Origin: a virus | DNA length: 33,220 nt | Strand: one strand, 5' to 3' | IMG/VR virus record: IMGVR_UViG_3300027721_000048 | Location: 1 to 33,220 of that record | In this document: in pieces, positions 9,295-29,535 of the stretch | Layout of the letters: every line of letters starts with the position of its first letter | Position numbering within the stretch: position 1 is the first letter of the stretch | Made by a program: the position numbers and the translations under genes | Notes under the pieces: model-generated | Told to the model about the DNA's origin: nothing | The model's input: the letters and a program-made list of their open reading frames with translations, nothing else | Databases searched by the model: none

Positions 9295-9726
9295 TCAATA
9301 GTATGAGTTTTTTAACCAAAAGGCTTTGGCAGCACACGGGCCACCTGAGCCATATTTGCGACCTATGTAGGCCAATGCTGCAATCGTTTGGGCAACAGTT
9401 GATTTACTGCGCTTCATTCCAAGATTGCGATAAGTACCATCTAACAACTGCCCCACACCTGATGCGGTGCTGGTTGGGTTGTCCTTATCTTGCCAAGCGC
9501 TTTCTTTTCCCATTACGAATGAAAAGCACTTGAACTGTTCAGTTGTAAGTAGCTCGCGAGCCACTTCTTTTGCATTTACCTGCATCAAATGTGGTCGCTC
9601 TTTGTAGATAACCAATTGAGGTATTGCAGGTGGTGCTGCGATTGTTTGAACCATCAATGAAGTGCTAACGCTAACCACCACGATCAGTGCGAGCCTTTTG
9701 ATGAGTCTTTTGTCTGTTGGTGTAAT
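9295..9726 (-). CDS. Exported lysozyme/transglycosylase-like protein, probable ATT start
   Basis: The mature part has ESAWQ (catalytic Glu about residue 75), NPTSTASGVGQLLDGTYRNLG and a C-terminal YIGRKYGSGG...AKAFWLKNSYY, the pattern of small lytic-transglycosylase/lysozyme-fold proteins of actinobacteria. In frame upstream of a GTG at 9681 is a basic-plus-hydrophobic signal peptide (KRLIKRLALIVVVSVSTS). No ATG, GTG or TTG exists upstream of that segment before a stop, but an ATT at 9726 has a perfect AAGGAG seven bases ahead. I therefore propose initiation at ATT, giving 143 residues and a 43-bp overlap with the WhiB gene. A start at GTG 9681 would lose the basic signal region. Confidence 0.65.
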   Translation of the reverse strand: MTPTDKRLIKRLALIVVVSVSTSLMVQTIAAPPAIPQLVIYKERPHLMQVNAKEVARELLTTEQFKCFSFVMGKESAWQDKDNPTSTASGVGQLLDGTYRNLGMKRSKSTVAQTIAALAYIGRKYGSGGPCAAKAFWLKNSYY

Positions 9727-10133
9727 GGTGCTGCTCCTTGTTCAGTTGCTGACCACTTGCTTACAACTCGCTTTGCATAACTAGGCGATGTATTCAATTG
9801 ACCTGCAATTTCGTTGACAGACAACCCTTTTTTATGTAGTTGAATAATCGTCAATGCCATACCTTTGAAGGTGACATTCTTATCCTTTACAACAACGGCA
9901 TCTCTTTCGGCTGGCGATTTGCCACCCCAAATACCGTGGGTTATTTGTTTTTCTAGTGCGTACTCCAAACACTCCTTTTCGTGAATACAACTCGCGCAAA
10001 TTGCTTTGAGTTGGTGCAGTCTTTCTGCCTCTTGTGTGCGGTTATCGGGAAAGAATAAATCTTTGTCCTCAATATCTGCACACTTGGCTTCATCAAAGCG
10101 GGGAAAATCAACAAAGAAATCAAATCCTTTCAT
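9684..10133 (-). CDS. WhiB-family Fe-S regulator with extra C-terminal HTH
   Basis: The 149-residue protein has the four Fe-S cysteines of WhiB proteins: C18, then C46-x2-C49-x5-C55, followed by GIWGG (67-71). WhiB proteins are 4Fe-4S transcription factors that bind the housekeeping sigma factor in actinobacteria; phage copies (such as TM4 gp49) can dampen host whiB genes. Residues 94-127 form a helix-turn-helix (LTIIQLHKKGLSVNEIAGQL...YAKRVVSKW), absent from the minimal phage homologues. The start overlaps the previous stop by 4 bp. It likely controls phage or host transcription early in infection and ties the phage to an actinobacterial host. Confidence 0.9.
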   Translation of the reverse strand: MKGFDFFVDFPRFDEAKCADIEDKDLFFPDNRTQEAERLHQLKAICASCIHEKECLEYALEKQITHGIWGGKSPAERDAVVVKDKNVTFKGMALTIIQLHKKGLSVNEIAGQLNTSPSYAKRVVSKWSATEQGAAPLHQQTKDSSKGSH

Positions 10134-10480
10134 TGCTTTTCACTAAGCCATTGTTGAAGGTCCTGGATTACCCAGGCTTTTTCAATCCCAGCGCTACGGC
10201 GCTTGAGAATGACATAATGCAATGGAACCTCGGATAAACCGCGAGCCTTTGCATAATTTTCTGCCTCAACTTCAGCTTCACGCCAAAATTCAGGCAAACT
10301 TATTGTTTTACGATTCTTGAGTTCAAGAATGTATTGCTTGCCAGCAATGATTGCGACTAGATCGCCTTCATCGTTCTTACCCGCCTTCACCAAACGCTCA
10401 CACAAGGCACCAGCACTACGAAGCCAACGCATAACATCGGTTTCAAATTGTGCGCCTTTGCGCCCATTTGGATTAGCCAT
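10130..10480 (-). CDS. PD-(D/E)XK nuclease, Holliday-junction-resolvase-like
   Basis: The 116-residue protein has the compact resolvase layout: basic N-terminus GRKGAQFE with E13, GD with D40, then E53-L-K55 in YILELKN, and a C-terminal VILKRRS strand. E...GD...ExK with this spacing is seen in archaeal Hjc-like and phage resolvase-like nucleases, which cut four-way junctions. It overlaps whiB by 4 bp. With the endonuclease VII-like gene the phage would have two possible branch-resolving activities, one early and one late. Confidence 0.75.
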   Translation of the reverse strand: MANPNGRKGAQFETDVMRWLRSAGALCERLVKAGKNDEGDLVAIIAGKQYILELKNRKTISLPEFWREAEVEAENYAKARGLSEVPLHYVILKRRSAGIEKAWVIQDLQQWLSEKQ

Positions 10481-10484
10481 TGAG

Positions 10485-10856
10485 TTACTTAACCGCCTTC
10501 AATGATGGGTAGTTGGTGCCAGCCTCACGGCTGATGCGGGCAAACTTAACTGCTCGAATCAAATCTTCAGCCAAAATAAGTGCTTCTTTTTCTGTCATAT
10601 TGCAAAGCAATGGTGCGTTCTCGCTCAAGTTATCGCGGGCATTATCTAGGTGTTCAAAGTAGTTTTCAGATTTAACTGAACGATCTGCAGAATGGCGCAG
10701 TAAGTCCAAATCATCTAGCGGGTATGCACCCACAACATCTTGCACTAAATCCTTTACTGCATCTTGTTCTTCAAGATATAAGGCAATACTGCCGTCTGAA
10801 TGAGTATGCACTGAAAATAGTGGGTCGCGTGGTTGCTTAAATTGATCTAAATTCAT
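10485..10856 (-). CDS. Hypothetical protein (123 aa)
   Basis: This soluble acidic protein has a beta-like N-terminus (PLFSVHTHSDGSIALYLEE) and a helical remainder ending KEALILAEDLIRAVKFARISREAG. It contains no cysteine motif and no membrane segment. It overlaps the small membrane ORF by 4 bp and precedes the resolvase-like gene by 4 bp. I recognise no family. Early-operon position suggests a DNA-metabolism or host-takeover role, which is inference. Confidence 0.6.
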   Translation of the reverse strand: MNLDQFKQPRDPLFSVHTHSDGSIALYLEEQDAVKDLVQDVVGAYPLDDLDLLRHSADRSVKSENYFEHLDNARDNLSENAPLLCNMTEKEALILAEDLIRAVKFARISREAGTNYPSLKAVK

Positions 10857-10945
10857 CGGCCTTCACCAATTTCAAAAGCTGCAATGATGATGAGATACAG
10901 GCAAATGATGCCGATAAATCCACACGCTAAGCCTAACCAAAACAT
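10853..10945 (-). CDS. Small single-pass membrane peptide (30 aa)
   Basis: This 30-residue ORF is almost entirely one hydrophobic helix (FWLGLACGFIGIICLYLIIIAAF) with a short charged tail. AAAGGA stands six bases before the ATG, and its stop overlaps the next start by 4 bp (ATGA). Its function is unknown; small early membrane peptides in phages often act on the host envelope. Confidence 0.5.
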   Translation of the reverse strand: MFWLGLACGFIGIICLYLIIIAAFEIGEGR

Positions 10946-11007: not shown

Positions 11008-11541
11008 CTAGACTCGCTGAACTTCAATCTGAAAAGGTTTGGCGGTGTTGATGTCATATTTGGCGGCAATGGCAAGTGCCTTAAGGATTTCGGCCTTGCC
11101 GACATTTGGCACCGCCCCTGCCAATGCGCCAAGCGCGTAGGCAGAGCCTGAGCCAACCCCGTACAGGCCATCTTCAGATTGGGTAACGCTCAAGTCATCG
11201 CCAATTTCAAATATATTGCCAGCAAAGGCCAACAAGTATGAATAACTGATTCCTTCTTTGGTGTAATCAAATCCCTGCAACTTAAATGCAGCAATGATGC
11301 TTGGGATGATCTTTCGACCCATAAAGGTAACTGGATTGGTGCCGTCAAAGGCTGGCGGTGTCCAGTTATAGGTGAGAATGTCACCTGGCCTGCAATCACC
11401 GCTTACTGCCAAAAGGTACTTCTTCAGCTTTACGATCTTGGGTGTGCTGGGCGAGATGATGCGCTTATCGCCATCTGTTACCTGAGAGTCTGCCCCTAGA
11501 ATGGCAAAATCAGGCCCCTGGAAGGCTATTAGCGTGGTCAT
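11008..11541 (-). CDS. Proteasome beta/HslV-like Ntn-hydrolase peptidase
   Basis: Starting at the ATG at 11541 the protein is 177 residues beginning M-T-T-L-I-A. Removing Met leaves Thr1; Asp17 falls exactly in GADSQ, a lysine lies at 34 (33 in proteasomes, one-residue shift), and GSGS at about 129-132 matches the Ser129-Gly130 loop. AVSGD and YGVGSGSAYALGAL resemble HslV. Such enzymes form ring-shaped ATP-fed proteases; no ATPase partner gene was seen, so it may use a host unfoldase (Mpa/ARC type) or act alone. A TTG 16 codons upstream would add a short propeptide but falls inside the leader hairpin. It is the first gene of the leftward early operon. Confidence 0.8.
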   Translation of the reverse strand: MTTLIAFQGPDFAILGADSQVTDGDKRIISPSTPKIVKLKKYLLAVSGDCRPGDILTYNWTPPAFDGTNPVTFMGRKIIPSIIAAFKLQGFDYTKEGISYSYLLAFAGNIFEIGDDLSVTQSEDGLYGVGSGSAYALGALAGAVPNVGKAEILKALAIAAKYDINTAKPFQIEVQRV

Positions 11542-11569
11542 TGGCCAAGTGTAGGGTAAAGGCGTGAAA

Positions 11570-11754: not shown

Positions 11755-11994
11755 ATGACAACAGTAGAAACAACAAAAGCAATTCGCGCAGAGCTAAAGG
11801 CAACATTCCCAACATACAAGTTTTCAGTTCGCAAGGTTCATTGTGGAACTGTTTACATTTCATACAACGGTGATAAGGAAATCCGTGAGGCCGTTAATGC
11901 AATTGCCAAGAAGTTTGAAGGTTGGTCAGAATTCAACACACAATATGTTTTTGTTAATCCTTGCGGTCCACTACTAGAAAAGGTAGGTGCATAA
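11755..11994 (+). CDS. Small protein, possibly LPD29-like
   Basis: The 79-residue protein reads IRAELKATFPTYKFSVRKVHCGTVYISYNG, then a helical part and a VFVNP end. This alpha-beta pattern resembles a small domain (LPD29 type) seen in proteins of phages and plasmids, but I give that match low weight. It is the first of five rightward genes and lies directly after the divergent promoter. The Shine-Dalgarno is weak (GGATAG). Being alone on the opposite strand with its own promoter suggests immediate-early expression. Confidence 0.65.
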   Translation: MTTVETTKAIRAELKATFPTYKFSVRKVHCGTVYISYNGDKEIREAVNAIAKKFEGWSEFNTQYVFVNPCGPLLEKVGA

Positions 11995-12118: not shown

Positions 12119-12292
12119 ATGGGTGCTATGAAATCTTTGGTAATTGATATTGCAGATACTATGTATCAAATCAGCCGTGATCTGAACGAAGCAAGCGAAT
12201 CAGGCGATTTTGACGAGATGAAGCAATCACTTCGCAGGGCAATTGTGAATTCTGCCCTGACCATTGCCCACATTGAAGAATTGGAGCGTTAA
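12119..12292 (+). CDS. Small helical protein (57 aa)
   Basis: The ORF encodes a predicted two-helix protein (MKSLVIDIADTMYQISRDLNEASES, then FDEMKQSLRRAIVNSALTIAHIEELER). GGAG lies 11 bases upstream. No family recognised. It is flanked by genes 1 bp away on each side. Confidence 0.55.
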   Translation: MGAMKSLVIDIADTMYQISRDLNEASESGDFDEMKQSLRRAIVNSALTIAHIEELER

Positions 12293-12293
12293 G

Positions 12294-12458
12294 ATGATTA
12301 CAAAGCGTGGCAAGCGTGTACGAGCAGTTGCAATTGCAGTTGGCATCATCCTAATTTGGCAGGTTGCCAGCAATCTTTGGTGGGTTGGCATTGATGCGCC
12401 TAGCGCAGAATTTCTTGGCTGGTGTTGGGGTTCAATGAGTGAGTGTGTGGTTCTATGA
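12294..12458 (+). CDS. Small membrane protein (54 aa)
   Basis: A basic N-terminus (MITKRGKRVR) precedes one hydrophobic helix (AVAIAVGIILIWQVASNLWWV), so the tail would lie outside the membrane by the positive-inside rule. The ATG at 12294 has GGAG seven bases ahead and is preferred to a TTG ten codons upstream. Its stop overlaps the next start (ATGA). Confidence 0.6.
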   Translation: MITKRGKRVRAVAIAVGIILIWQVASNLWWVGIDAPSAEFLGWCWGSMSECVVL

Positions 12459-12580: not shown

Positions 12581-12591
12581 TTAAAGAAACG

Positions 12592-12627
12592 AAAAACCCC
12601 CCGCAGGAACGGCTGCAGGGGGTTTTT
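12592..12627. terminator. Bidirectional rho-independent terminator
   Basis: AAAAACCCCC...GCAG and CTGCAGGGGGTTTTT form a 15-pair stem with one C-A mismatch and a 6-nt loop, with A-run and T-run at opposite sides. It separates the convergent ends of the rightward cassette and the late leftward genes and can work in both directions. Confidence 0.9.
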
Positions 12628-12654
12628 CTATGGGGGCGATTTCGCGCCTAAGAG

Positions 12655-12951
12655 TTAATCTATATGTGTTGCAAGTTCAGCACAAATTGCAGCATAAGCC
12701 GCTAAATCAATTGCTGAATCTAAGTGCGTTGGCATTGCAGATAGTCGAGCAAGTTTCATTGCTGCCATACATAAAGCTGCAACTTCAGGTGGAACTGCAT
12801 CCCCTGGTTGCGCCGTTTCAACATATCGTTCTAAAACAATTCCTAATAAAACGCCAATGCGCTTATGGTTAATGCGTGGTTCATCGTAGGAAACATTGCG
12901 ATCACCGTATGTAAGGCGCTTGGCCTCATCTAATACTTCGCCTCTATTCAT
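12655..12951 (-). CDS. DUF6378-like phage protein
   Basis: From the ATG at 12951 the protein is 98 residues: NRGEVLDEAKRLTYGDRNVSYDEPRINHKRIGVLLG...AVPPEVAALCMAAMKLARL. The leading helix, YGDR, and closing cMaamKlaRl pattern are those of the DUF6378 family found in many phages; its biochemical role is not known to me. TGGGGGC lies six bases upstream, better than the start nine codons earlier. It overlaps the glycosyltransferase stop by 8 bp and is the last gene of the late unit, ending at the bidirectional terminator. Confidence 0.7.
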   Translation of the reverse strand: MNRGEVLDEAKRLTYGDRNVSYDEPRINHKRIGVLLGIVLERYVETAQPGDAVPPEVAALCMAAMKLARLSAMPTHLDSAIDLAAYAAICAELATHID

Positions 12952-14020
12952 CAATTGCCCCCATCTCATACCAGCCATCGCCCCAAAGGGTTAATAATCG
13001 CTGAAAGTAAGCCTCGTATTGAAGGCCGATAGTATCAAGGTTATAGAGCGATACGGCACGATTGCGGATTTTGGCGCGATCTAGGTATTTGACCCCTTCG
13101 GCTGCCTGCATAAATTCAGCCAAAGTACGGCATCTAAAGCCTGAAATCCCATCAGGATTGTTCTCTGTAAATGCGCCCCAATCAGTTGTGATTGTTGGCG
13201 TGCCACAAGCCTGTGATTCGATTACTACATTTCCAAAAGGTTCTACATAAAGGGTTGGTGCAAAGGTGGCGGTGGCACCGCCCATTAGCTTTGCGCGTTC
13301 TTCAGGCCCCACACTGCCTACAAACTCGCCATACCCGCTTTGCTCACCAGGCCCTGCCAAGACAAGCCGCTTGCCAAGTCGCTGGCATACTTCTTGGGCA
13401 ATTCGGTAGCCTTTGCGATCAATAAGCCGACCAATAAACAGGTAATACTCGCCCTGCTCATCGCCTTTGCCATCTCCCAATGGAAACATTTCAGGTTCTA
13501 AATACCCTGGAATGACCGCATCGTAGAACTGGCCATCTGCCGTTGTCGGGTTTTTCCACCCTGCATAAATTGAGTGCATCCAGGCATAAGACTCGAACAC
13601 TCGAAACTTGGCAAACACGCCGCCGTAGCCAACGCCAAACTCCACCGACATATGGGCAGGAAAGGCATCGGCAATTGGCTTTTGTGCGCTGCCGCCGATT
13701 AAGCAGATGAAATCTTCCTTTTCAATGCGATCTGCAATTTCAGCAATGGCCTTAGCATTGAAGGAATCCCAAAGCCACCCGTTAAACGGGAACTGGGTGT
13801 AATGAGCTACACCGTGAAGTGCAGCCTCTTGTTGCTTCTTTGACACGCAAGTAATCAGTTCAGTTACAGGTGCCTCAACCTCATCGCCAGCATACAAGAA
13901 TACTTCGTGGCCTAAGTTGTGCATCATAATACAAAAGCGGCGCACCTTTTCAGTAAAAGCGCACCCAGCAAACTCTTTTGTTACCTGTGTGTGTGGCAGT
14001 GCCACAATATGAAAACGCAT
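12944..14020 (-). CDS. Glycosyltransferase, GT-B fold (GT4-like)
   Basis: The 358-residue protein has a C-terminal half typical of GT4 enzymes: YYLFIGRLIDRKGYRIA, LVLAGPGE, and near residues 259-275 PTLYVEPFGNVVIESQACGTPTITTDWGAFTE, which includes the E-x7-E nucleotide-sugar motif. The N-terminal half has a Rossmann-like opening (MRFHIVALPHTQ) and GHEVFLYAG. It may glycosylate a virion protein, for example the adjacent fibre, or the host surface; DNA bases are another option. The ATG is preceded by a 14-bp palindrome that also precedes the other glycosyltransferase at 26362-27039. Confidence 0.85.
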   Translation of the reverse strand: MRFHIVALPHTQVTKEFAGCAFTEKVRRFCIMMHNLGHEVFLYAGDEVEAPVTELITCVSKKQQEAALHGVAHYTQFPFNGWLWDSFNAKAIAEIADRIEKEDFICLIGGSAQKPIADAFPAHMSVEFGVGYGGVFAKFRVFESYAWMHSIYAGWKNPTTADGQFYDAVIPGYLEPEMFPLGDGKGDEQGEYYLFIGRLIDRKGYRIAQEVCQRLGKRLVLAGPGEQSGYGEFVGSVGPEERAKLMGGATATFAPTLYVEPFGNVVIESQACGTPTITTDWGAFTENNPDGISGFRCRTLAEFMQAAEGVKYLDRAKIRNRAVSLYNLDTIGLQYEAYFQRLLTLWGDGWYEMGAIDE

Positions 14021-14269: not shown

Positions 14270-17200
14270 TTAACCAAATACCCAAATTTTGATTTGTGCA
14301 TTTCCACCAGTACCACCAGCACCGCCGTTGCCTGAACCAGTAGCACCGCCACCGCCGCCGCCACCGCCACTTGCAGCACCAGCAGCACCAGCGCCCGCAG
14401 TGCCACCACTTAAACGACCACCGCCGCCGCCGCCGCCTGCACCAAAACCAGAGCCTGCTGTTCCTGCACCTCCGTTTTCTGCTCCACCTGCTCCTCCACC
14501 GCCTGTACTTGCAGCACCAGTTATACTTAATGCGTTATTAACATCAGTTTGACTAGTACCACCAGCGCGACCTGCGAAAGAAGAGGATGTTTGGGCTCCA
14601 CCACCACCGCCACCACCTGCACCGCCTAATAAACCTGTGCTTCCCTCTACAGGAACAGCAGTTGAACCAGTACCACCAGCACCAATTGAACCTTGTGTGA
14701 TGGCATACAAAGTAAAGGGACTGATATAACCAGTGCCTCCGGCCACGGTGCCAACAGTTCCTCCAGCACCTCGCCCACCGCCTGCAAAATAAAGAGGACC
14801 AAATCTACTTTGTCCTCCAAGAGTGCCTGGAGAACCAGCGACTGCATCAGCAGTTGAACCAGCACCACCAGCACCGCCTGCTCCAATTGTGTAAGTAATT
14901 GGGGAAGTAAACTCAGAGGCTGCACAAACAAAACGCGAGTACGCTCCACCGCCACCGCCGCCGCCGCCGCCTGTAGCAGCTGTTCCAGCACTTCTGCGCC
15001 CGCCACCGCCTCCGCCACCTGAACCGTGGAAGTCAACAATAAAGAGTTTTGCGCCTGCTGGAATTGTGTAGGTTGAGGATGATGTAAAAGTCTGTGAATC
15101 TAGTTGTGTCATACCACTACTAGCAGCCCACTTTATTCCAAGTGTTTGAGTTGAGTCAGCAGTAAGAACATGATTATTTGTTCCAACGCCAAGTCTAGCA
15201 ATGGCTGATGCACTGCGTGTTAGTAGATCGCCTTTAGTCGTAAGTGTTGTTGTGCCGCCTTCGGGTCCAGTCGCACCAGTTGCGCCTGCAGGTCCTGTTG
15301 CACCCGTAACACCAGTTGCACCTGTATTGCCTGTAGCACCAACTGGCCCAGTAGCACCTTCAGGACCCGTTGGCCCAGTTGCACCTGCAGGTCCAGTTGC
15401 ACCTGTTGCACCATCTAAACCTGCAACGCCAGTTGCACCTGTATCTCCTGTTGCACCAATAGGTCCAGTTGCACCGATTGGTCCAGTTGCACCAGCAGGG
15501 CCAGTGGCACCTGTTGCACCATCTGCGCCATTGGCACCGCTTGCACCTATCGGTCCAGTCGCTCCAATATCACCAGTAGCCCCAATAGGGCCAGTGGCAC
15601 CAACAGGGCCAGTAGGTCCAACATCTCCAGTTACTCCCTGCGGTCCAGTTGCACCAACAGGTCCAGTTGCACCTGTTGCTCCAACATCTCCAGTTATTCC
15701 TTGCGCTCCTGTAGCTCCAACGGCACCTGTTGCACCGATAGGTCCAGTTGCACCAATATCACCTTGTTCGCCTTGAATTCCTTGTGGTCCTGTTGGACCT
15801 GTCGCACCTGCAGGACCAGTTGCACCTGTTGCACCATCTATACCGTTGGCACCAGTAGCACCAGCAGGTCCAGTTGCACCTGTATCTCCTGTTGCACCAA
15901 TAGGTCCAGTTGCACCTATTGGACCAGTTGCACCAACAGGCCCAGTTGCACCAACAGGTCCAGTTGCACCAGTATCGCCAGTAGGTCCAACATCTCCAGT
16001 TACTCCTTGCGGTCCAGTTGCACCAACGGCACCTGTTGCACCGACTGGGCCAGTGGCACCCACATCGCCCTGAATACCTTGTGGCCCTGTTGCGCCAATT
16101 GGCCCTGTCGGTCCAGTATCTCCAGTTGCACCGATAGGTCCAGTTACACCGATCTCACCTTGAATTCCTTGAATACCTTGCGGTCCAGTAGAACCAACAG
16201 GTCCAGTTGCACCAGTTGCTCCATCTACACCTTGAATACCTTGAGGACCTGTTGCACCTGTTGCACCTGTTGCACCTACAGTTCCCGCAGGTCCAGTTGC
16301 ACCTGTTGCACCAATATCGCCTGCAATACCTTGTGGGCCAGTCGGTCCAGTTGCACCAATCACGCCAGTTGGACCTGTAGGGCCAGCAACTGTTGAATCA
16401 GCACCGCTTGCACCAGTGGCACCGATAGGTCCAGTTGGGCCAGTATCTCCCGTTGGGCCAACAGGTCCAGTAGCACCTGTTGCACCAGTAGCACCAACAG
16501 GCCCTTCAGGGGCTTGCAGTGATGTAATCACATAAGAATAATGGTTTGAACCTTGAGTGTAAAAAGAAAGTGTTTTGGCACCGCCAGCGCCACCAGTTTT
16601 GTAACCATATATTTCAACAATCATTCGATTTGTTGGGTCAACTGTAGTTGTTGGCAAAACAATTTCTGTTTGTAATTCAACAGGATTTGTTGAGTTATAT
16701 CCAACGGCAGTTGAATCTGTATTGCCAATTGTAGAAATAACTGTTCCGCTTGAATCGGCAAGTTTAAGTGTGCAATACATAGAAACTTGATCGCCATTTG
16801 CAGCTTTTAATGCGTACAAATAGAAACGCTGAACGCCTGCTGGGATAAGTGAAAAACCAAATTCAGGCGTAATGTAAGTTGAATATAAAATAGGTGTTGT
16901 ATCAACTGAATTTGTAGTGATATTTTCAGCAGCAACAACTGGTTCTTCACCTAATTGCTTATATGTCAAAATTTCTGTAGTTGATGCGTTGAAATAATAA
17001 AAACGGCCAGTTGTGTAACCTTGAGGACCAGTTGCACCAGTAGCACCTGTTGGACCGCTAACACCCGTGGCACCGACTGGGCCAGTGGCACCTGTAGCAC
17101 CAATAACGCCCGTGGCACCTGTCGGGCCTGGAACAAACGAATCAGCACCTGTTGGACCTGTAGCTCCGATTGGACCAGTTACACCTGTTGGACCAACAAC

Positions 17201-17758
17201 GCCTTGTGGACCTGTAGCACCAGTTGCGCCAACATCACCTTGAATACCTTGTGGACCTGTTACACCTGTTGGACCAATATCTCCAGTAACGCCAACAGCA
17301 CCTGTTGCACCAACTGGACCTGTTACACCGATTGGACCAGTTACACCAATCTCACCCTGGATTCCTTGAATACCTTGTGGACCTGTTGCACCGATTGGAC
17401 CAGTTACACCAATTGGACCTGTTACACCGATTGGACCTGTTACACCGATTGGGCCAGTTGGGCCAGTCTCGCCTGTATTTCCAGTTGCACCAATTGGACC
17501 AGTAGCACCAGTTGCACCTGTTACACCAGTTGCTCCAACTACACCTTGAGGTCCTGTTGCTCCAGTTACACCTTGAGGGCCTGTTGCACCTGTTACGCCT
17601 GCACCTGTTGCACCTGTTGCACCCGCTGGCCCTGTTGGACCTGTTGCACCGCCAGGACCTTGTGGGCCTTGAAGGTTTGAAATAATTACCTCGGCAGGTG
17701 AGGCAATTTCAGCAATTACATCGGTTGTGCTTGAAGATACATAGACAATTGAACTCAT
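14270..17758 (-). CDS. Giant collagen-like tail fibre with Gly-rich tip
   Basis: The 1162-residue protein has a short N-terminal attachment region (1-30), a first collagen-like block of Gly-X-Y triplets (to about 247, often GPTGATGPxG with Thr in Y), an inserted globular domain (about 250-420, beta-rich), a second longer collagen block (to about 860), a short linker containing [17 protein letters not shown], then a glycine-rich C-terminal domain with long Gly runs and [12 protein letters not shown]. Phage collagen-like fibres form trimers; poly-Gly tip domains are used for receptor contact in some phages. It begins with a 4-bp overlap on the upstream tail gene. Repeats make length variation by recombination likely. 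Confidence 0.9.
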
Positions 17759-26262: not shown

Positions 26263-26374
26263 GCTTGGTTCTCGTTTCTACTTTGGGAAGCATTGCGCGT
26301 TCCAGTTGTGGAACGGCGGTAGCGGTTTCCTTTGATTTTACCTTAATTCTTAAAATTCTTTTTATGCGTTCCAT
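26249..26374 (-). CDS. Small basic protein (41 aa)
   Basis: ERIKRILRIKVKSKETATAVPQLERAMLPKVETRTKRG is very basic at both ends. Overlaps: 13 bp with glycosyltransferase stop and 14 bp with connector start, which argues for real coupling. No family recognised; a role in DNA binding or head joining is possible. Confidence 0.5.
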   Translation of the reverse strand: MERIKRILRIKVKSKETATAVPQLERAMLPKVETRTKRGDH

Positions 26375-27039
26375 ATGTCGTGCTGCCTATCATCTAACCA
26401 GTAGCTCTTTGAGTGAGGCAGTATCGCGCCTGTGTTGACATAAATTGGAAAACCTAGTGAGCGAACACGGCGGCAAAATTGTAAATCTTCGCCTATCCAT
26501 TCACCGTTGATAGGTCCATCCCAAAACCAGCACCAATCTTTGCCCTGGTGTGGGTCGGCATCTGCCTGAATTGCCTCAAGAACGCTGCGGTGGATAAGCA
26601 AACATCCAGTACCTGCAGCATCTACTTGAAAAACTGAATCTTTATCGTACTTGTTTAACGGCAAGAAGCCTTCAGGGGCATCTTGAAAAATTGTTGGCAC
26701 TGGTTGTGGGTATGGGTAGCCTGTTTCAAAACTGGCAAATACCAAACCTGCTACAACTGGGCGCTCTGTATCGTGGGCAGTTTCGACTAACTTATCAAAT
26801 GCCTCAACAGATAGTTGCTCATCTGAATCCATCATCAACAACCAGTCAGATTTGGTTTCTAAGAATTGCTTGACCAAACGATTGCGTTGCTTTGAAAGCA
26901 ATCCTGAACCCTTGATGCGAATAAATGGGCCAAGTCGTGATGATCGTGACTGAGCAACCTGAATCAAACTAAATGCAAACCCGCCGTTAACTGTTCCTGG
27001 GTCACAACTGCCGATTGAAACTTTATGTGCTGACTTCAT
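26362..27039 (-). CDS. Glycosyltransferase, GT-A fold (GT2-like)
   Basis: The 225-residue protein has LLSKQRNRLVKQFLE, then WLLMMDSDEQL with the D71-S-D73 metal motif of GT-A enzymes, VVAGLVF, AAGTGCLLIHRSVLE and GEWIGEDLQFCRRVRSLGF, which contains the catalytic ED. It lies between capsid and connector genes, so glycosylation of capsid or tail proteins is a reasonable guess. Before its ATG is the same 14-bp palindrome found before the GT-B gene. The insertion of such a gene inside a head module is common for late-acquired genes. Confidence 0.85.
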   Translation of the reverse strand: MKSAHKVSIGSCDPGTVNGGFAFSLIQVAQSRSSRLGPFIRIKGSGLLSKQRNRLVKQFLETKSDWLLMMDSDEQLSVEAFDKLVETAHDTERPVVAGLVFASFETGYPYPQPVPTIFQDAPEGFLPLNKYDKDSVFQVDAAGTGCLLIHRSVLEAIQADADPHQGKDWCWFWDGPINGEWIGEDLQFCRRVRSLGFPIYVNTGAILPHSKSYWLDDRQHDIWNA

Positions 27040-28584: not shown

Positions 28585-29535
28585 TTATTTTGTGTTGTTA
28601 ACGATTGCTTGCGCTAGGCGCAGGGAAATTGAACGCGGTGCAGTTGCTACAGGCTCAACAGGCACTTCTTCAACAACAGGTTCTTCAACTTCAATTTCTT
28701 CTTCAGGCTCTCCACCTGTAAGCATCGCCATCATTTCAACGGCCTTCATAATGTAATCGTGGCCTTCGCTTAAATCTTGGAAGATTGTATTGAGAACCGC
28801 TAAGGATTCCCCTGTAATCTCACGACCTTCTTTGATTGCTTCAATTGCGGTGCGTAATGCCTCACGCGCCTCAACTGTTGTTGTTGGGTAGGCAGGGTAA
28901 GTAACCACTGAAACATCTCCATCTGCTAGTGAAACTTCAGTTAGTGTGCGAGTTGTGCGATCTTCGCTCCACTTTTGACGAATGACACGGAAAGCAAAAC
29001 TCATTTGGTCAACATCTCCGCGCTCAACTAACTTGTAAAGATCGCGGCCTTCGTTGGTGTCTGCAATTTGTGCATCCATATACAAACCGCGATCATCTTC
29101 AGTTAGTGTAAGTGTGCCGTTCTTTGTGCGAGCTAGTGGCAAACCTTCGTGATTGATAAGCAAGCGCACATCAGGTGTCTCGCTCAAGGTCTTACGAAAC
29201 GCGCCAGGGGCGATTGTCTCAATAAATGGTAGGGGAACGCTGGCATCATTGAACACTGCAGCGTATCCGCGAAGTGTCATTGTGCCATCTTCGGCTTGTC
29301 TTGCTTCAACATCGCGCACTGTAAATGTACGGCGTTCAATCTTTTTCATTTTGCTCCTTGAGTTAACTTCCCCGCCTGGTTCAATATCTTCAGAAATTGA
29401 AACTGCAACCATCTGATCTATTGCATCTTGCTTGTTATCGTGGCAAACAACTGTTGTATATGAACCATCTGATTCTTGTTTTACAGTTGCCCATCCTGAA
29501 CAATCGGATTGATTATTGCTGACAAAGTAAGGCAT
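28585..29535 (-). CDS. Prohead protease, S78 family, with internal start
   Basis: The 316-residue protein carries LRGYAAVF, INHEG with catalytic H129, MSFAF with S179 and DGDVSVVTYPAYP, the S78 (HK97 gp4) pattern; it cleaves capsid delta domains in the prohead. The first 60 residues form a separate small domain (DCSGWATVKQ...CHDNKQDAIDQMVAVSISEDIEPGG) also known fused to proteases or MuF in actinophages. Inside the gene an ATG at codon 63 (29349) has AAGGAG four bases ahead, so a shorter core protease is likely also made. The C-terminus is acidic (PEEEIEVEEPVVEE), scaffold-like. Confidence 0.9.
   Translation of the reverse strand: MPYFVSNNQSDCSGWATVKQESDGSYTTVVCHDNKQDAIDQMVAVSISEDIEPGGEVNSRSKMKKIERRTFTVRDVEARQAEDGTMTLRGYAAVFNDASVPLPFIETIAPGAFRKTLSETPDVRLLINHEGLPLARTKNGTLTLTEDDRGLYMDAQIADTNEGRDLYKLVERGDVDQMSFAFRVIRQKWSEDRTTRTLTEVSLADGDVSVVTYPAYPTTTVEAREALRTAIEAIKEGREITGESLAVLNTIFQDLSEGHDYIMKAVEMMAMLTGGEPEEEIEVEEPVVEEVPVEPVATAPRSISLRLAQAIVNNTK

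Follow-up and report, generated by a model that had tools for sequence, protein, structure and literature searches.

A conserved gene for a predicted proteasome-like threonine peptidase heads an operon in a putative actinophage whose hosts probably lack proteasomes

Proteasome homologues have been known in phages since 2021, when Fuchs, Alva and Lupas described 22 new proteasome homologues, with PPH and AAH found in phages (PMC8665760). These phage proteins have no AAA+ partner and no function, known or assigned, in the literature cited here, and the 2021 survey found AAH in no phage specific to Actinobacteria (PMC8665760). The general idea of a phage proteasome homologue is not new. Here, we describe a gene for a predicted proteasome-like (group I N-terminal nucleophile (Ntn) hydrolase) threonine peptidase of 177 amino acids at positions 11008..11541, minus strand, of IMG/VR virus record IMGVR_UViG_3300027721_000048. 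We call the whole stretch analysed, positions 1 to 33,220 of that record (33,220 nucleotides), the window. Our additions are a predicted leaderless promoter and a neighbouring micropeptide gene, both conserved, and probable hosts without a proteasome, and this lineage makes the question of function testable. The interpretation that we favor, at somewhat less than an even chance, is that the gene encodes an autonomous, BPH-like compartmentalised threonine peptidase that is made at once on infection and degrades host proteins.

An earlier note on this DNA, made by a model from the letters alone, had taken the product to be a proteasome/HslV-like Ntn-hydrolase, and the database and structure searches agree with it. 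The protein begins MTTLIAFQGPDFAILGADSQVT (open reading frame 11541-11008, minus strand). It matches Pfam PF00227 with an E-value of 7e-6 (26.2 bits against a gathering cut-off of 22.4) and the PHROGs family phrog_1040, 'peptidase HslV family', with an E-value of 2.9e-24 over residues 1-175. Searched as a single sequence against the PDB it gave a marginal match (HslV 1m4y, 0.0016); a profile of 64 relatives reached HslV at 4.8e-10 and BPH at 6.5e-10 among PDB sequences. AlphaFold2, given 64 rows including distant viral relatives, returned a model with a pLDDT of 93.1 and a pTM of 0.88; from 22 close, near-identical relatives alone, the pLDDT was 48. Foldseek placed BPH 5ovs at the top of its PDB matches (E 2.2e-11, TM 0.76), followed by HslV and then 20S beta; there were 1036 PDB matches at E<=0.001, and the best 50 of these 1036 are BPH, HslV or 20S subunits. 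Against viral models, the best matches were other phage proteins, several of them called HslV, proteasome or Ntn hydrolase. Because the PF00227, phrog_1040, PDB profile, AlphaFold2 and Foldseek results coincide, the similarity is more than a chance match, and the observation of an intact proteasome-type peptidase gene is confirmed.

The modeled monomer has the four-layer, proteasome-like fold, so that a fold other than that of an Ntn-hydrolase, which the earlier note had named as grounds for rejecting its reading, is not what was found. In the model, helices 50-59 and 70-88 follow the oxyanion strand. They bear on the possibility that the protein is a ligase or a specific amidase, similar to connectase, rather than mainly a protease. 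Proteasome-like homologues do include connectase, a protein ligase, which is characterized by a two-helix insertion between S3 and S4 and has no first helix pair (PMC8665760). The model keeps both helices and has no such insertion, and we consider a connectase-like activity distinctly unlikely.

The catalytic residues of active Ntn-hydrolase subunits are all in place. Counting from the threonine that follows the initiator methionine (numbers rise by one when the methionine is counted), the protein has Thr1, Thr2, Asp17, Lys34, Gly47 and Gly129-Ser130-Gly131-Ser132, and Lys34 corresponds to Lys33 of HslV shifted by a one-residue insertion. The codons, all on the minus strand, are at 11536-11538 (Thr1), 11488-11490 (Asp17), 11437-11439 (Lys34), 11398-11400 (Gly47, the oxyanion position) and 11149-11151 (Ser130). 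One scan of IMG/VR recovered 57 full-length close relatives, and a wider scan more than 100 candidate loci. With the methionine counted, T2, T3, D18, K35, G48 and G130-S131-G132-S133 are invariant in a 22-row alignment, and M1, T2, T3, D18, K35, G48, G130 and G132 in a 64-row alignment that reaches down to 31% identity; T2, D18, K35 and G48 are unchanged across all three relative alignments checked. Thr1, Asp17, Lys34 and a GSGS motif at about residue 130 are therefore where the earlier note had put them, and the homologues without Thr1, Asp17 and the lysine that it had thought would count against it did not turn up. Pairwise dN/dS between the relatives and the window gene is about 0.02-0.2, from which we conclude that purifying selection acts on the gene. 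A noncatalytic subunit, decayed or serving as a decoy, would fit neither this ratio nor the invariance of every catalytic position; we found no point in its favor and regard it as extremely improbable.

Identity with HslV itself was considered and rejected, as the protein scores far below the curated cut-offs of the HslV equivalog models of NCBIfam (29.1 bits against 137, and 25.3 against 157.75) and the phage has no HslU gene. The NCBIfam model of the bacterial 20S beta subunit, TIGR03690 (20S_bact_beta), is absent among the matches of the peptidase up to E=1.

In actinobacteria, a -10 box a few nucleotides before the start codon gives a leaderless transcript that begins at the A of that codon. 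The motif TANNNT ends 6 nucleotides (43 cases) or 7 nucleotides (17 cases) before the ATG or GTG in 60/60 upstream regions of the peptidase gene and its relatives, a spacing expected in about 11% of shuffled sequences, and a Shine-Dalgarno-like motif was found in 0/60 of them. On this basis, we predict a leaderless message for the peptidase. The predicted -10 box in the window is TACACT at 11548..11553 (minus strand), 6 nucleotides before the ATG, and among the 47 window genes, the peptidase gene alone has TANNNT at the 6-7 nucleotide spacing. A sigma-70 consensus scan missed this promoter, and the box is visible by comparison of the relatives only. The frame 5' of the ATG is unconserved and shifts among relatives. 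Taken together, the differing upstream frames, the box in all 60 regions and the lack of a Shine-Dalgarno motif indicate that the ATG at 11541 is correct. The earlier proposal that there is no propeptide is supported as well.

The peptidase gene heads a leftward operon with the same gene order in 15/15 long related contigs, where it is followed by genes for RusA, WhiB, a transglycosylase-like protein, a PD-(D/E)XK exonuclease and a primase-polymerase. The preceding, late operon ends at a strong intrinsic terminator with a 16-bp stem (12591..12628, minus strand). This synteny and the terminator support the earlier placement of the gene at the head of the early operon; its expression would then be early, as inferred from position.

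Two features identify the virus, judged from its genes, as an actinophage, namely a WhiB gene and the relationship of its terminase, which is 48% identical to that of Pontimonas phage phiPsal1 and falls next to those of Streptomyces phages. Phage phiPsal1 resembles the window phage in its set of early genes but has no detectable peptidase. The earlier note had supposed that the likely hosts use proteasomes, and here the genome surveys point the other way. PF00227, which covers 20S alpha and beta subunits and HslV, is found in 311/395 Actinomycetes genomes, and genomes of 1.2-1.5 Mb are prominent among the matchless ones listed. One actinobacterial order with small genomes (1.2-1.5 Mb, 42-48% G+C, rhodopsin in 35/41) has traits suggestive of Nanopelagicales, and 196/201 genomes of this order have no PF00227 match. 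Five larger relatives in the same order (1.6-1.9 Mb) keep 20S genes. Such a distribution would be expected if proteasomes were lost as the genomes were streamlined. The ARC/Mpa model gave no match over the cut-off in 59/61 small genomes of this order, and in a second small-genome family, 41/43 genomes lack PF00227. In tetranucleotide profile, the window correlates most highly with the representative of this second family, which is weak evidence, as the control phage F5 did not come out grouped with the small genomes. We consider that the window phage probably infects hosts with relatives that no longer possess any proteasome-type protease.

A scan of cellular genome contigs with the close alignment found no relatives, and one with a further alignment matched two Yinghuangia genomes only. 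When the actinobacterial orders were searched for cellular members of the window clade, there were C-terminal matches only, and those that were cross-checked coincide with 20S beta genes.

The models that lose most weight from the absence of PF00227 and ARC/Mpa in plausible hosts are those that make the phage protein part of, or a substitute for, the 20S beta ring of the host, or have Mpa/ARC of the host feed it, as the earlier note had suggested. The beta-like fold and the presence of PF00227 in most Actinomycetes speak for them, and they would regain ground if the host were a larger-genome actinobacterium. With plausible hosts devoid of 20S, HslV and ARC, and with a sequence and fold nearer to BPH and HslV than to 20S beta, we judge them very improbable.

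No unfoldase was detected in the phage either, in agreement with the earlier reading. PF07724 (HslU-type) has no match in the window and is over the cut-off in 0/25 phage records; PF00004 matches neither the window nor any of its 14 long relatives. Outside this set, PF00004 matches occur in the E7/F5 and DSL-LC01 groups of related phages, and the two cases inspected were rejected as unfoldase partners: the F5 protein looks like a replication ATPase of the RecA/DnaB type, and that of DSL-LC01 is a MoxR-type AAA_5 protein beside a cobalamin-biosynthesis gene.

An autonomous peptidase is favored because no phage unfoldase was detected and the probable host partners are absent; with a probable host without proteasome, HslV or ARC, host partners can largely be excluded. 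In the course of events that we propose, host RNA polymerase would transcribe the peptidase gene first in the early operon from the leaderless promoter, and methionine aminopeptidase would expose Thr1. The subunits would then form an unfoldase-independent ring, by analogy with BPH, and early in infection this ring would degrade proteins of the host, be they unfolded, nascent or particular ones. If this is true, the phage would have an unfoldase-free proteasome-type protease serving host takeover.

The main rival to autonomy is that the phage protein borrows and redirects a housekeeping AAA+ unfoldase of the host (ClpC, ClpX, FtsH or similar), which would feed host proteins to it. The ARC/Mpa model search returned FtsH-type AAA+ matches in 61/61 small genomes, no unfoldase was found in the phage, and an interaction with housekeeping genes has been raised for unfoldase-less homologues (Fuchs 2021, PMC8665760). 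Against this, HslV and 20S dock their own AAA+ partners via dedicated interfaces, and BPH, which has the nearest structure, is described as apparently working without an unfoldase (PMC8665760). We therefore regard borrowing as unlikely, yet a serious contender.

Several considerations weigh against an autonomous peptidase. The host of the window phage is unproven, and its record may not be complete. Many compartmental peptidases show little activity unless an activator is present, and ring formation and activity are presumed here. The homologue in E7 and F5 lies in the head module beside the portal gene, and the role may differ between lineages.

This last point raises the alternative that the protein serves virion assembly by trimming proteins of the head or scaffold. 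The E7/F5 homologue (F5 OX376641.1 17158-17691; E7 OX376640.1 7500-8033) lies directly after the portal gene, and the same adjacency is seen in 26/26 E7/F5-like contigs with that module; this is where a prohead protease often lies. A PHROGs scan of nine F5 proteins gave no head maturation protease match, and the homologue might serve as head protease there. The window phage differs in having a separate HK97-type head maturation protease gene (28585..29535, minus strand; phrog_80, 3e-62), which speaks against the peptidase acting as a capsid protease, as does its position at the head of a replication operon in all 15 contigs. Microbacterium phage WaterT likewise has both proteins, with the peptidase homologue in a group of small genes to the left of the terminase, outside the structural genes, as the autonomous interpretation would have it. 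For the window phage, a role in virion assembly is improbable.

Directly behind the peptidase gene is a micropeptide gene (10853..10945, minus strand) with its own good Shine-Dalgarno sequence, GGAAAGGA, encoding 30 amino acids with one transmembrane segment, MFWLGLACGFIGIICLYLIIIAAFEIGEGR. A short hydrophobic open reading frame of about 30-41 codons, diverged in sequence, takes this place in 17/17 loci. We may speculate that the micropeptide recruits the peptidase to the membrane. The fullest version of this idea is a two-gene device, in which the 30-41-residue micropeptide would tether a peptidase ring to the host membrane or feed it there, and the ring would restore compartmentalised threonine proteolysis to a host lineage that has lost 20S, HslV and ARC and remodel the host proteome in the first minutes of infection; we put it forward as a long shot.

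Further along the operon, on the minus strand, lie genes for a 123-amino-acid protein conserved in 15/15 contigs with no Pfam or PHROG match (10485..10856), a RusA-like Holliday junction resolvase (10130..10480), also part of the 15/15-contig synteny, and a WhiB-type regulator (9684..10133; PF02467, 6e-16; 15/15 contigs). The transglycosylase-like protein (9295-9681, minus strand; phrog_12661, 1.7e-11) is encoded in the early replication operon in 15/15 contigs, and its gene is placed apart from the lysis and tail genes. The upstream border of the peptidase operon is a divergent small gene with an LPD29 domain (11755..11994, plus strand; PF18847, 1.2e-12). This gene belongs to a short plus-strand island of small genes, opposite in direction to the genes around it, at the junction of the late and early operons (11755-11994, 12119-12292 and 12264-12458; LPD29 and a possible membrane protein). 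Elsewhere on the minus strand, a gene for a large collagen-like tail fibre and two glycosyltransferase genes (14270-17758, 12944-14020 and 26362-27039) may have functions in host-surface or DNA modification.

Among known systems, HslV (ClpQ) shares Thr1, Asp17, the lysine, the GSG motif and the MTT start with the window protein, with a TM of about 0.7; it differs in that the window protein misses the equivalog cut-off and that a gene for its partner HslU was not found in the phage. BPH (PDB 5ovs/5ovt/5ovu) is the best solved-structure match, is among the best profile matches and needs no unfoldase as far as is known; identity to it is about 20%, and it is a bacterial housekeeping gene, not a viral one. 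PPH and AAH have in common with the window protein a group I, HslV/BPH-like fold, a compact form without propeptide, an origin in tailed phages and no known AAA+ partner. PPH is about 140 residues long and is said to lack helix H2, whereas the window protein has 177 residues and two helices (50-59 and 70-88); on the side of AAH, it is 29% identical to a protein from Yinghuangia that is presumed to be an AAH. In our tree, the window lineage is a supported clade of its own made up of actinophage proteins (97/97), and as the deep branches are weak, we refrain from placing it with either PPH or AAH.

The family phrog_1040 also includes relatives from E7/F5, DSL-LC01, Pseudoalteromonas J2-1, Vibrio and Pantoea. 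Many members have a C-terminal extension (the profile has 277 positions), and the window protein covers positions 14-156 only. A viral scan with the Pseudoalteromonas protein gave no match. The Pantoea protein is matched by 199 phage records, most of them from T5-like phages that infect Salmonella and E. coli; in the T5-like Salmonella phage S124, and also in AAS21, the homologue lies between thymidylate synthase and RNase H. Distant homologues occur in Microbacterium phages, and RefSeq labels some homologues 'peptidase HslV family'. A related proteasome-like gene flanked by transposase genes is present on the conjugative plasmid pBPHY02 of Paraburkholderia phymatum (NC_010627.1).

Relatives of the window protein can thus be studied in cultured phages, namely E7 and F5 on a Planktophila isolate, the Microbacterium phages, and the T5-like phages on E. 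coli and Salmonella, the last of which offer a tractable laboratory system for a proteasome-like protein. The Planktophila phages E7 and F5 (OX376640/OX376641) have been cultured (PMC10202952) and infect Ca. Nanopelagicales. Their peptidase, unannotated in the deposited records, sits beside the portal gene, unlike that of the window at the head of the early operon, and has about 33-36% identity to the window protein and the same catalytic residues.
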